Position numbers and translations under genes: made by a program. This document shows, in pieces, positions 32,074 to 38,639 of a DNA stretch of 46,916 bases; the stretch's first letter is position 1, and the number at the start of each line of letters is the position of its first letter. The notes below the pieces were generated by a model that did not search any database, was not told where the DNA came from, and saw nothing but the letters and a program-made list of their open reading frames with translations. Source of the DNA: Actinomycetes bacterium (lineage in GTDB: Bacteria; Actinomycetota; Actinomycetes; Streptosporangiales; Streptosporangiaceae); assembly GCA_021792405.1 (NCBI GenBank), contig JAJYUU010000012.1:1-46916 (forward strand). The letters run 5' to 3'.

Positions 32074-33411
32074 CTACAGCACGGCCACCTGCACCGCTCC
32101 GCCTGCGGGGTCGACGTGGCGGGCCCATCGGCCGTCCAGCCGGATGCTGCGCCCCGGTACCAGGCGGGCGTGCGCGGAGGTGAGCAGTCGCCCGTCCTGC
32201 CGCACCTGCAGCCGCGCCCGGCCGGCAAAGGCAGCGGACCGCAGCACGAACCGGCCGCCCGGCGGCTGCGGGCTGACCGGACTGATCGCGTTCGGGGAGA
32301 TCCACCGGAGCGGCCCGGCCACCATCACGGGAACGGGCACGCACCGGCCGCCCGCCTGCCCGGCGGGAGCCGCCTGCCCGGCCAGCGCCACCTGCCCGGC
32401 GGGAGCCGCCTGACCGGCAAGGTAGGCGGCGACGTGAGCAGCAGCGTGGCGGCCACTGAGTGCCGCCACGTCGGCTGTCTCGGCGGCGTGGATGAGGTTG
32501 CCCGCTGCGAACATCCCCGGAACCGACGTGCTGAGCGTGGTGTCGACCGCGGGGCCCCTGGTGCCGGGATCAAGCGCGGCTCCGGCGAGCCTGGCCAGCT
32601 CATGATCGGGAATCCAGTCACCGGTGAATACCACGAGCTCGCACGGCACGCTCCGGACTGAACCGTCACGGTCATCACGCAGCAGGACCGCGGACACCCC
32701 GTCGCGGCCGGCGATCCCGGCAACAGCGGTTCCCGTCCAGACCGGCACTCGCCAGCGCAGCCGCGCGGCTAGCCGGAACGCCGCGAAGCTCTGGTGCCAT
32801 GGCTGGTCGGTGACCAGCGCGGTCACCTCGGCGCCGGCGTGCAGCAGGGTCAGCATCGCGGAGAAGCTCACGTGCTCGGCGCCGACGATCACCGCGCGGC
32901 CGGCCAGCCGCTGCCCGTGCAAGTAGACCCGCTGCTGCAACTCGCCCGTGGTCATCACGCCGGCGGGCCGGCTGCCGGGCACTAGCCGCGCCGCCCGCGG
33001 GCGCTCGCGGCAACCGGTAGCGAGCAGCACGGCGCCCGCGTGCACGTTCTCCACCCCCGCCGGACTGGTCAGCGTCGCGGTGATCGTGCCTGCCTGGCGG
33101 GCCGGCGCCGCGCCGGCATCGGTCGCCAGTTCGCAGCCGGTCGCCGGCCAGCCGGTCAGGGTCGTGCCGGTGCGCAGCGTGACCCCGGCCGCGCTCGCCG
33201 CGCCGCGGTAATGCTGCGCGTAAGCCGGCCCGGTCATCAGCCGGTGCAGGTCGCGAATGCCGTACCCGGAGTGCGCGCAGTGCCGGGGGATACCGCCGGC
33301 CTGGTGCTCGCGGTCGACCACGACCACATCCGCGACACCCAGCTTGCGCAATTCGATGGCCGCCGCAAGCCCGGCGGGTCCGGCTCCTGCGACGAGAACG
33401 TCGACATTCAC
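32074..33411 (-). CDS. NAD(P)/FAD-dependent oxidoreductase (operon gene 5)
   Basis: A 445-residue flavoprotein. The FAD-binding Rossmann motif VLVAGAGPAGLAAAIELRK begins at residue 5. A second Rossmann-like segment (AVIVGAEHVSFSAML) and the C-terminal FAD contact (GMFAAGNLIHAAETADVAAL) follow. The last ~100 residues form an extra domain with a short PAGQ/LAGQ repeat linker. GlpA-like proteins are often paired with such an enzyme in glycerol-phosphate-type operons, probably passing electrons to NAD or a quinone. GTG 33411 overlaps the stop of the preceding gene (GTGA). A longer upstream frame lies inside that gene and is not coding. Confidence 0.85.
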   Translation of the reverse strand: MNVDVLVAGAGPAGLAAAIELRKLGVADVVVVDREHQAGGIPRHCAHSGYGIRDLHRLMTGPAYAQHYRGAASAAGVTLRTGTTLTGWPATGCELATDAGAAPARQAGTITATLTSPAGVENVHAGAVLLATGCRERPRAARLVPGSRPAGVMTTGELQQRVYLHGQRLAGRAVIVGAEHVSFSAMLTLLHAGAEVTALVTDQPWHQSFAAFRLAARLRWRVPVWTGTAVAGIAGRDGVSAVLLRDDRDGSVRSVPCELVVFTGDWIPDHELARLAGAALDPGTRGPAVDTTLSTSVPGMFAAGNLIHAAETADVAALSGRHAAAHVAAYLAGQAAPAGQVALAGQAAPAGQAGGRCVPVPVMVAGPLRWISPNAISPVSPQPPGGRFVLRSAAFAGRARLQVRQDGRLLTSAHARLVPGRSIRLDGRWARHVDPAGGAVQVAVL

Positions 33412-34841
33412 GCCAGGACCCGCGCGTCCCGGTCGGCTCGCGCACCGCCCGGCGCGCCCATCAGGCTCGCCACCCTCGCAGCGCAGAAGAATCCCTGGCA
33501 TCGCCCGTTCGTCGCTCTCGTGCGCCGCCGCAGTCCGTCGAGATCGGCCGGCGGCAGCGGGCTGGCCAGCGCATCCCGGATCTCGCCCCGGCTCACCCGC
33601 TCGCAGTGGCAGACGATGTCGCCGTAGGCGGGGTCGGCGGCGATCCTGGCGCCGTCCTGGTACGGTCGCCGGCCGGCCTGCCCGATATACGGCAGCACCG
33701 GCGGCTTCGGCCGCCGGCCGTCGCGTTCCCGCAGTTCCAGGCCGGCTTCCGCGAGCTGATCGGCGACGTATTCGGCGATGCCGAGCGACGCCGTCAGCCC
33801 GGTGGAGCGGATCCCGCCGACGCACGCGTACCGTCGGCTCGAGTCGACCCGGATCTGGTAATCGCGGTGCTCGGTGGCCGCCCGCAGGCCGGCGTAGGTC
33901 GCAGTCACTTCCTCGCGCACCAGGTCAGGCATGATCTTCCGGCCCGCGGCGAGCAGCGAGGAGAGACCCGTTCCGGTCGTCGCCGTGTCGCCGCGGTCAA
34001 AGACGTCCTGCGCTGTAGGCCCGAGCAGCACGTTTCCGTACACGGTCGGCGCGACCAGGACGCCCTTGGTCTGCGGCGTCGGCACCGGCAGCAGGATGGC
34101 GCCGACGAGCGGCCTGGCCAGCTTGTCGAAGACAATCAGCTCGCCCCGCCGGGGCGCGATCGTGAAGCCGCCGCCGCCGAGCATCGCATCGATGCGGTCG
34201 CTTTCCAGCCCGGCGGCGTTCACCAGCCAGCGGCAGCGCATGCTGCCGCTGTTCGTGCTGACCTCGTGCCAGCCGTCGGCGGCAGTGACCCCGAGCACCC
34301 GGGTCCGCAGCCGCAGCCGGACTCCGGCCCGCACCGCCTCGGTGGCATAAGCGAGCGGCGTGGTCCACGGGCAGATGATGCTCTCGTCCGGGATCTCCAG
34401 GGCGCCCAGCGCGCCAGGTGCCAGATGCGGCTCGCGCGCGTACAGCTCGGCGGCGGGAACATACCGGATCGCCAGGTAGCCGTTGTGGCGCGCCTTGTCC
34501 TCGATCCCGGCGAACTCCGCGTGCTGATCGGCCGACCAGGCGACGAGCAACGCGCCGGTTCGCTCCAGCGGGATCCCGGCCTGCTGCGCGTAGTCGCGCA
34601 GCAACTCCGCGCCACGGCGGACGAGCCTGCTCTCCAGGCTGCCGGGCACGGCATCGAAGCCGGTGTGCAGGATCGCGGTATTGGCCTTCGTGGTGCCGGT
34701 GCCGACATCGTTCCCGGCGTCGGCGATGACGCAGTCGAGGTCGTAGCGCGCGAGCGTCCTGGCAATCGCGGTGCCCACCACTCCGGCTCCGACGATCAGC
34801 ACGTCAGCGACCGGCTCCGGGGGACTACCGGGAGCCGTCAT
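33408..34841 (-). CDS. GlpA-like FAD dehydrogenase with BFD [2Fe-2S] domain (operon gene 4)
   Basis: A 477-residue DAO-fold flavoprotein resembling the large subunit of anaerobic glycerol-3-phosphate dehydrogenase. The FAD motif VLIVGAGVVGTAIARTLA begins near residue 14, and TTKANTAILHTGFDA is a GlpA-type active-site segment. The C-terminal BFD-like domain holds four Cys in CHCERV and NGRCQGFFC. The likely role is oxidising the phosphorylated product of the adjacent kinase to a keto-phosphate, passing electrons to the flavoprotein encoded next. ATG 34841 overlaps the kinase stop (ATGA). No GlpC-like iron-sulfur subunit is present. Confidence 0.88.
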   Translation of the reverse strand: MTAPGSPPEPVADVLIVGAGVVGTAIARTLARYDLDCVIADAGNDVGTGTTKANTAILHTGFDAVPGSLESRLVRRGAELLRDYAQQAGIPLERTGALLVAWSADQHAEFAGIEDKARHNGYLAIRYVPAAELYAREPHLAPGALGALEIPDESIICPWTTPLAYATEAVRAGVRLRLRTRVLGVTAADGWHEVSTNSGSMRCRWLVNAAGLESDRIDAMLGGGGFTIAPRRGELIVFDKLARPLVGAILLPVPTPQTKGVLVAPTVYGNVLLGPTAQDVFDRGDTATTGTGLSSLLAAGRKIMPDLVREEVTATYAGLRAATEHRDYQIRVDSSRRYACVGGIRSTGLTASLGIAEYVADQLAEAGLELRERDGRRPKPPVLPYIGQAGRRPYQDGARIAADPAYGDIVCHCERVSRGEIRDALASPLPPADLDGLRRRTRATNGRCQGFFCAARVASLMGAPGGARADRDARVLA

Positions 34842-37800: not shown

Positions 37801-37847
37801 CACTTTCTCGGCCGCCGCTGATCGACTGCGGCGCGGGATCCTGGCCG

Positions 37848-38639
37848 CTAACCGGCCGCGTTCAGGGGCATGGGACTGCTCTGGGCGCACAGCACTGTGA
37901 CGCCTGCGTTCTGGAGGGTTGCGATGGCATCCTGGTCGTGGTCGTCGGTGACCACGGCGGTGATCTGGTCGAGCGCGCACACCCGGTGCACGGCGATCGT
38001 GCCGAGCTTGCTGGAGTCGGCCAGCACGTAGCTCGACGCGGTGTGGGCGATGATCGTCCGCCGGACTATGACCTCCGGCGGGTAGTAGTCGGTCAGTCCG
38101 GCCTCGGGATGCACTCCGCCGGAGCCGAGGAAGGCCTTGTCGGCGTAGAACTCGCCGAAGAACGCTTCGGCGTACGCGCCCGAGCAGGCAGCATCGCCCT
38201 GCCGCACGTGACCACCGCACAGCATCAGGTCGACGTCGCCGCGCTCGGCCAGGGCCATCGCGGCCGGAACGGAGTTCGTGAGCACCCGGCCGCGGAAGTT
38301 CGCCGGGAGTGCCCTGGCTACCTCGAGTGCCGTCGTGCCGACATCGATGACCACGGTGTCTTCCGGCTCGATGAGGCTCGCGGCGAGCGCGGCGACGGCG
38401 CGCTTACGGTCGGTGTTGCGCCGGCTGCGGGCGCTGAAACTGCCCTCGGTCGACCGGCCGGACGACCTGGTCGCTCCACCGTACACGCGCTCCAGCAAGC
38501 CGTCAGAGTGCAGCGCGCGCAGATCGCGCCTGATCGTCTCGACCGAAACGTCGAACTGCCGGGCGAGAGCCTCGGCCGACGCCGCGTTCTCCGCGCGGAC
38601 CGCGGCGAGAATTGCCTGGCGACGCTGGCTTGGCAGCAC
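37848..38639 (-). CDS. DeoR/GlpR-family transcriptional regulator (operon gene 1)
   Basis: A 263-residue repressor. The N-terminal winged helix-turn-helix (SQRRQAILAAVRAENAASAE and VSVETIRRDLRALHSDGLL) is followed by VYGGATR and a DeoR sugar-phosphate sensor domain with DVGTTALEVARALP, LTNSVPAAMALAERGDVDL and AFLGSGGVHPEAGLTD. Such proteins respond to phosphorylated sugars or polyols, here presumably the product of the kinase. GTG 38639 has AGGAAGG about 8 nt upstream; the open frame extending to 38,831 lacks such a site. It heads the operon and probably controls it through the inverted repeat at 38,670. Confidence 0.9.
   Translation of the reverse strand: MLPSQRRQAILAAVRAENAASAEALARQFDVSVETIRRDLRALHSDGLLERVYGGATRSSGRSTEGSFSARSRRNTDRKRAVAALAASLIEPEDTVVIDVGTTALEVARALPANFRGRVLTNSVPAAMALAERGDVDLMLCGGHVRQGDAACSGAYAEAFFGEFYADKAFLGSGGVHPEAGLTDYYPPEVIVRRTIIAHTASSYVLADSSKLGTIAVHRVCALDQITAVVTDDHDQDAIATLQNAGVTVLCAQSSPMPLNAAG

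Follow-up and report, generated by a model that had tools for sequence, protein, structure and literature searches.

A glycerol-type kinase and dehydrogenase operon of an actinomycete, probably redirected to small amino alcohols

The stretch analysed here (the window) comprises 46,916 nucleotides of contig JAJYUU010000012.1 of an Actinomycetes bacterium of the Streptosporangiaceae (assembly GCA_021792405.1), and carries on its minus strand a set of adjoining genes for a DeoR-type regulator, a permease of the APC superfamily, a glycerol-kinase-like FGGY kinase, an FAD dehydrogenase of the DAO fold and a second FAD protein. On balance, and with moderate confidence, this operon is regarded as serving the inducible breakdown of a small 2-amino alcohol, which would be imported, phosphorylated and oxidised by a flavoprotein; to judge from conserved residues and gene neighbourhoods, a kinase/dehydrogenase module of the glycerol type was most likely redirected to amino alcohols. 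A sequence-only reading had proposed an operon for a substrate other than glycerol, described as a polyol or amino-polyol. This proposal was supported in the comparisons below and is narrowed to an amino alcohol, and the unit proved to be widespread and not peculiar to this genome. The genes are as follows:

37848-38639, minus strand: DeoR/GlpR-type transcriptional regulator (GTG start, 263 aa), a probable local repressor
36265-37800, minus strand: APC-superfamily permease (ATG start picked by us, 511 aa), a probable amino-alcohol importer
34838-36268, minus strand: FGGY kinase, glycerol-kinase-like (GTG start, 476 aa), a probable amino-alcohol kinase
33408-34841, minus strand: GlpA/GlpO-like FAD dehydrogenase with DAO fold and C-terminal BFD [2Fe-2S] domain (ATG start, 477 aa)
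32074-33411, minus strand: second FAD protein, Pyr_redox_2 (GTG start, 445 aa), a probable electron-transfer partner

All five lie where the sequence-only reading had placed them (32074-38639), as one minus-strand unit, and the coordinates bear out its three 4-nt overlaps, which join the last four genes at the APC/kinase, kinase/DAO and DAO/FAD junctions; the gap between the DeoR and APC genes measures 47 nt. Since third-codon-position GC is 0.87-0.95 across the five genes (window GC 0.69), all five proteins hold Pfam domains above the curated cut-off and the order DeoR-APC-kinase-DAO-FAD is kept in relatives whose kinases are as little as about 53% identical, the open reading frames are real genes.

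The window kinase has glycerol kinases as its closest PDB matches and possesses Gly77, Glu78, Trp97, Tyr127, Asp224, Gln225 and Phe249, but against the GlpK model TIGR01311 it scored 408.5 bits and did not reach the cut-off of 590.35. Signature residues of GlpK are Arg83, Glu84, Tyr135, Asp245 and Phe270, and the FGGY family as a whole acts on polyols and sugars (PMC3245297; this and the other papers cited are drawn on through parts of their text). In the window kinase Glu78, Tyr127, Asp224 and Phe249 are kept, and the position of Arg83, which contacts the glycerol hydroxyls in glycerol kinase (PMC2680290), is held by Gly77, so that the replacement pointed out earlier beside retained E78, Y127 and D224 was borne out by the alignment. 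Gly stands at this position in 36/36 actinobacterial kinases not selected by motif (the window kinase and near relatives included) and in 11/11 proteobacterial ones, in contrast to Arg in 22/22 ordinary GlpK, which were hand-picked (17 from the order-wide kinase list, four plasmid-borne and the genome's own). Gly is no test in the 80 actinobacterial loci picked via the patterns QGE[TS]VLAW and KCT[YF]GTGA; the kinase of locus L173, below the score threshold and outside the 36, likewise reads NQGE. Altogether the NQxE pattern with Gly was found in 109 of 110 actinobacterial kinases. In the remaining one (L147, Streptomyces) the Gly is kept and both the acid (NQGG) and the pocket Trp are lost, and it may be a decayed copy; gene calling revealed neither a DAO nor an FAD gene next to it.

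In a kinase tree of 57 chosen rows (24 actinobacterial, 11 proteobacterial and 22 GlpK), computed by a quick method, unrooted and with one long branch (Paracoccus), the actinobacterial Gly kinases, the proteobacterial Gly kinases and GlpK each fell on one side of a branch (SH-aLRT 99, 100 and 99, respectively), and the window kinase and its group were excluded from the branch holding the 22 GlpK. A single origin of the Gly-type kinases across both phyla is possible, which an unrooted tree does not establish. Being fixed across a separate kinase group, the change from Arg83 to Gly is ruled out as a local mutation. Because the protein stays below the cut-off, departs from the signature and branches apart from GlpK, we do not class it as GlpK, although its activity may well be that of a glycerol kinase. 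Loss of the positive Arg83 beside a retained acid would suit a cationic substrate. Glycerol kinase itself takes some amino analogues of glycerol.

The gene neighbourhoods point in the same direction. For the actinobacteria, a set of 109 kinases was first reduced to 66 at 85% identity and neighbours were then counted; genes were called in relatives by a simple script of our own, with rough starts. In 58 of the 66 non-redundant loci the kinase gene is followed by those for the DAO and FAD proteins, and an APC-like gene lies within -3 to +4 genes of the kinase in 47/66 loci versus 1/451 flank genes, a rough background, the APC reference set having come mostly from the same neighbourhoods and including one flank gene of L146. 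The genome-wide density of AA_permease_2 matches (21 in 5.39 Mb) would give about 0.04 per stretch of about 9 kb. These APCs are of several subtypes, about 26-97% identical to that of the window. Around the trio of kinase, DAO and FAD genes, L103 displays an APC, a glutamine synthetase (GS)-family protein, an aldehyde dehydrogenase and a class I glutamine amidotransferase, and L116 an APC and a GS-family protein, which match genes of the GlnA4 ethanolamine cluster of Streptomyces (PMC6529630). RidA and two HAD proteins were found in L144, and one HAD protein each in L150 and L182; RidA would fit an imine intermediate. In many Streptomyces loci a protein of about 330-360 aa is encoded between the divergent APC and kinase genes (e.g., L085 8613-9680, there without Pfam match).

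Among 25 plasmid records with the DAO, all 14 proteobacterial, two of five from Streptomyces and two of six from Firmicutes/Fusobacteria were opened, and gene names other than those of scanned proteins are the records' own annotation. The DAO-FAD-FGGY trio is present on 12/14 proteobacterial records, corresponding to 11 lineages, two records being like P. aeruginosa segments; the two records without an FGGY kinase beside the DAO came from Mesorhizobium and Haematobacter (a 34% DAO alone). In five of the 11 lineages (Chelatococcus, Paracoccus, Tistrella, Neorhizobium and Rhizobium ACO-34A) the trio is accompanied by the binding protein of a tripartite ATP-independent periplasmic (TRAP) transporter close to 4UAB, which is Csal_0678 with ethanolamine bound (PMC12410723, PMC4646407); its relative EtoX of Phaeobacter binds ethanolamine with a Kd of 7.9 uM and does not bind glycerol-3-phosphate (PMC10132767). 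The Chelatococcus, Paracoccus and Tistrella proteins scored 443, 468 and 482 bits, with 4uab/4xf5 as the sole PDB match at E<=1e-20, and those of Neorhizobium and Rhizobium ACO-34A are 84% and 88% identical to that of Chelatococcus. DUF1937 and an APC occur in 4/11 lineages (Agrobacterium, Roseateles, Sinorhizobium and Ensifer). The Agrobacterium APC is 61-68% identical to APCs of Mycolicibacterium and Amycolatopsis and 83-93% identical to those of Sinorhizobium, Ensifer and Roseateles, and of these four, the two compared with the window APC, those of Agrobacterium and Roseateles, were 42-43% identical to it. In P. aeruginosa (1/11) EutH stands beside the trio (705 bits, cut-off 575). Agrobacterium moreover encodes a class II fructose-bisphosphate aldolase and a fructose-bisphosphatase beside the trio, which would fit a triose phosphate product.

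Two further observations concern these plasmids. DUF1937 stands beside the trio in 5/11 lineages (L187 6042-6398, L189 13034-13393, L194 12022-12378, L195 12022-12378, L197 11964-12416). On the Mesorhizobium plasmid (L190 8168-11389) an APH/choline-kinase-type protein replaces the FGGY kinase and the catalytic His of the DAO is Thr, so that this DAO-FAD pair possibly acts on a different substrate; the general APH score of its kinase exceeds the choline/ethanolamine kinase score, and it was not used as support.

Homologous APC, ethanolamine TRAP and EutH thus alternate as uptake partner of one conserved trio, and in the simplest reading all of them import the substrate of the trio, a small amino alcohol. 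The ethanolamine-type partners in other phyla shift the earlier 'polyol or amino-polyol' toward 'amino alcohol'. This link is drawn from relatives; in the window itself it would be carried by the APC alone. Alternatively, the trio might act on a polyol that contains no nitrogen and is not glycerol (resembling erythritol, threitol or glucosylglycerol), and the permease might scavenge nitrogen independently of it. This appears distinctly improbable: the range of the FGGY family would allow for it, and a sugar-type ABC set, the sole polyol-like partner seen, replaces the APC in L066 (the one scanned for ABC genes among the loci with a dimethylformamidase-like protein described below), but the co-occurrence with the APC lies far over background, and EtoX, EutH and a homologous APC take the partner role in other phyla.

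The permease of the window itself matches AA_permease_2 (147 bits) in an operon devoid of GlpF, in agreement with the sequence-only reading, which had assigned it to an amine/amino-acid type and not to glycerol facilitators. Its best-scoring NCBIfam models, TIGR03428 (221 bits) and 2A0304 (168 bits), both remained under cut-off, and the ethanolamine permease Eat (TIGR00908) was not among the eight families listed for it at E<=1e-5. PDB matches by sequence were weak only, and its structure model, itself weak (mean pLDDT 65.7), resembled general amino-acid/APC-fold transporters, which is uninformative on the substrate. The regulator matches DeoRC (155 bits) and HTH_DeoR (56 bits) of Pfam, with haloarchaeal GlpR as top NCBIfam match (180 bits, under its cut-off of 300). 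Inverted repeats are present upstream of its gene, and a scan of 31900-39100 revealed no sigma-70-type promoter and two terminator-like sites against 1.2 expected, and was thus uninformative.

The DAO protein (Pfam DAO 201 bits, Fer2_BFD 38.7 bits) is nearest to type 2 GlpO among NCBIfam models (NF033460, 202 of 460 bits; TIGR03377, 128 of 552.8; both under cut-off) and by sequence nearest to the GlpO structure 4x9m. Its structure model (mean pLDDT 87.5) matched 4x9m (Z 40.3, root-mean-square deviation 2.1 over 373) and 3dme (Z 39.7), a tie, and glycine oxidases at Z about 36. In fold, catalytic His and BFD cysteines it agrees with GlpO. In an alignment of 110 actinobacterial DAOs, which includes near-copies, Lys259 and Arg320 are present in 110/110 and the four BFD Cys in at least 109/110. 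The second FAD protein (Pyr_redox_2, 71.8 bits; weak PDB matches only) belongs to a group in which the first GxGxxG motif is intact in 101/101 actinobacterial proteins. Its second dinucleotide motif is degenerate (GAEHVS, residues 177-182), the third Gly being Glu in 93/101 actinobacterial and 6/6 proteobacterial aligned proteins. With this motif lost, the electron acceptor is probably not NAD(P), and transfer to NAD(P) by way of the degenerate site seems doubtful.

Taken together, a pathway can be proposed in which the APC permease would import a cationic amino alcohol and the kinase, with Glu78 and the hydroxyl-binding residues kept and Arg83 lost, would phosphorylate its terminal CH2OH. The GlpO/GlpA-like flavoprotein would then take a hydride from the carbon next to the phosphorylated CH2OH and, if that carbon bears the amine, the resulting imine would hydrolyse to a ketone phosphate and ammonia. 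Electrons would leave via the [2Fe-2S] domain and the second FAD protein, and DeoR would repress the operon until substrate or product accumulates. As substrate, serinol (2-amino-1,3-propanediol) is our first guess and ethanolamine, which would yield glycolaldehyde phosphate, follows closely; alaninol and 3-amino-1,2-propanediol are further possibilities. Oxidation of serinol phosphate gives dihydroxyacetone phosphate and NH3; as no further enzyme would be needed, serinol is put first, in line with the aldolase and bisphosphatase genes of Agrobacterium. Ethanolamine is more abundant in nature than serinol. That the unit represents a phosphorylating oxidative-deamination route for 2-amino alcohols, R-CH(NH3+)-CH2OH being phosphorylated by a glycerol-kinase paralogue and converted by a GlpO-like iron-sulfur flavoprotein to a ketone or aldehyde phosphate and ammonia without B12, microcompartment or gamma-glutamylation, in actinobacteria and proteobacteria including P. 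aeruginosa, is put forward tentatively and held to be somewhat less likely than not.

Several observations weigh against an amino alcohol as the substrate or against the permease as its importer. Serinol is, to our knowledge, uncommon as a metabolite, whereas the operon is widespread. No APC lies near the kinase in 19/66 actinobacterial loci, some of them at contig ends; the Streptomyces APC representative is only 29% and the P. aeruginosa APC 22% identical to that of the window. In Rhizobium ACO-34A the TRAP and DeoR pieces appear broken or badly called, and in the record of Roseomonas, as far as read, no EtoX-type TRAP, homologous APC or EutH was seen beside the trio. L066, L068 and L072 lack an APC and have a dimethylformamidase-like protein and an ABC set, and L073 a polar-amino-acid-type ABC set and an amine oxidase, as do L070 and L174 by gene order (the L174 oxidase was scanned); these swapped transporters would point to a wider or different substrate. 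For the record, the dimethylformamidase-beta-like protein (PF20254, 723-728 aa) is encoded upstream of the ABC set and DeoR-kinase-DAO-FAD in L066, L068 and L072.

Such loci would agree with a larger amine- or amide-bearing glycerol derivative (e.g., N-acyl or amino-acid-linked glycerol), trimmed by an amidase before or after phosphorylation. Accessory amide-cleaving genes vary by lineage: next to the dimethylformamidase-like proteins just mentioned there are a P1 peptidase in P. aeruginosa and, with an oligopeptide ABC set, a creatininase-family protein and a carbon-nitrogen hydrolase in Agrobacterium; transporter classes are several as well, including Peripla_BP_4 and SBP_bac_3 types. However, the window operon contains no amidase and 4UAB binds the small amino alcohol ethanolamine, and we give this explanation a small chance of being correct.

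Other points bear on glycerol. GlpO His51 is the proposed base that takes the proton of the C2-OH (PMC10726252), and its counterpart His59 is kept in 107/110 actinobacterial DAOs (two gaps, one other residue), which, given that role, suits an alcohol at C2 no less well than an amine there. Together with the retained hydroxyl-binding residues of the kinase, a GlpO-like base would also be compatible with glycerol or with an amino-diol hydroxylated at C2. Ethanolamine-pathway genes, moreover, are present in several trio loci: EutBC is annotated beside the trio in Chelatococcus, a GS-family protein, an aldehyde and an alcohol dehydrogenase in Paracoccus, and the genes of L103 were given above. The trio may hence serve something that merely accompanies ethanolamine. 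In a second glycerol pathway of this kind the kinase would use glycerol, or glycerol that is released along with ethanolamine when phosphatidylethanolamine headgroups are degraded, the DAO protein would form dihydroxyacetone phosphate from glycerol-3-phosphate, and the amine transporters would import the ethanolamine half. The kinase is indeed nearest to GlpK, with Trp97 and Gln225 among the residues retained, and the DAO protein nearest to GlpO/GlpA with its GlpO residues, and a GlpR-type repressor was among the proteins raised on phosphorylethanolamine in Phaeobacter (PMC10132767). This explanation is nevertheless considered unlikely: Gly is found at the Arg83 position throughout the group, genomes with the group kinase keep further such kinases, and Tistrella, Neorhizobium and Rhizobium pair the TRAP transporter with the trio, where neither EutBC nor a GS-family gene was seen in the part read.

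The genome of the window keeps an ordinary GlpK elsewhere. Among its four FGGY_N matches is a GlpK on contig C93, which passes TIGR01311 (596.3 bits, cut-off 590.35), and a GlpD-like protein is encoded on contig C263 (333 bits, under the cut-off of 360). Two aquaporin-like major intrinsic proteins are located on other contigs, none of them a glpF beside the genome's glpK. The separate glpK-glpF-glpD set, for which a search had been suggested, was accordingly recovered as a kinase and a dehydrogenase below cut-off, and not as a glpF next to glpK. That the unit is the genome's only glycerol operon is ruled out by the GlpK and the GlpD-like protein. No EutB match was obtained in the genome. Five GS-domain matches lie on other contigs, two of them beside AA_permease_2 matches: on C62 (permease 66-1382, GS 1883-2869) and on C19 (permease 34-798, GS 968-1966). 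These pairs are possible gamma-glutamyl amine or ethanolamine clusters, and if one of them is a GlnA4-like ethanolamine cluster, the window operon more likely serves another amino alcohol.

Order-wide, 295/297 genomes have a kinase match at E<=1e-60, and 42 (the window's included) a kinase of at least 475 bits, the next scores being only about 362 bits; all 42 list at least two kinase matches at E<=1e-60. Phylum-wide, 10/396 genomes (the window's included) have a group kinase at E<=1e-150, so that the unit is patchy across the phylum. Its carriers include Streptomyces, mycolicibacteria, rhizobia and plasmids of P. aeruginosa. Where annotation was seen, the proteins are called 'FGGY kinase', 'glycerol kinase' and generic oxidoreductases, and no literature on this operon appeared among the matches listed from open-licence papers. 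If the amino-alcohol reading is true, the unit opens a further way to gain energy from nitrogen compounds derived from headgroups, offers a one-residue marker against misannotation as glycerol kinase (NQG-E vs NQR-E) and provides candidate enzymes for serinol or alternative ethanolamine catabolism.

In the surroundings of the operon, a gene for an AAA_14/DUF4143 ATPase (39083-40252) immediately precedes the DeoR gene in the same orientation; no link to the operon was seen. An exact direct repeat of 603 nt (25493-26095 and 30849-31451, 5356 nt apart) spans most of two smpB genes, both with an SmpB Pfam match, and between the copies lie short genes resembling PIN-type toxins by eye and a 500-aa open reading frame without Pfam match. 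This is either an assembly artefact or an island whose ends derive from smpB.

Compared with known systems, the unit of P. aeruginosa, DUF1937-EutH // DeoR-DAO-FAD-kinase // P1 peptidase-APC, shares the homologous trio, the Gly at the Arg83 position and an ethanolamine-type transporter, whereas its gene order is DAO-FAD-kinase. It presumably corresponds to PA1485-PA1492 of PAO1; in the open-licence literature searched, no paper naming two of PA1487-PA1491 was found. Among Firmicutes units of DAO-BFD, FAD protein and DUF1667, that of a Ruminococcus albus plasmid has the DAO+BFD and FAD pair in common with the window (36% and 28% identical), but keeps GSGDIG in the second motif of the FAD protein and possesses DUF1667, in contrast to the GxE and the kinase of the window's group. 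With glycerol catabolism (glpK-glpD, glpK-glpABC or Mycoplasma-type GlpO) the operon shares an FGGY kinase and a DAO-fold flavoprotein, a DeoR/GlpR regulator and the GlpO-type His, Lys and Arg; it differs in the change from Arg83 to Gly, in both enzymes scoring under the NCBIfam equivalog cut-offs, in the amine-type permease, in the absence of GlpF and GlpC, and in the second FAD protein beside the DAO. With ethanolamine utilisation (EtoVWX TRAP and gamma-glutamylation, the GlnA4 cluster, EutBC/EutH) the trio loci have transporters and a few neighbour genes in common, yet among the five genes of the window operon there is no GS-like gamma-glutamyl ligase and no EutB-type ammonia-lyase, and phosphorylation followed by FAD oxidation would take their place.

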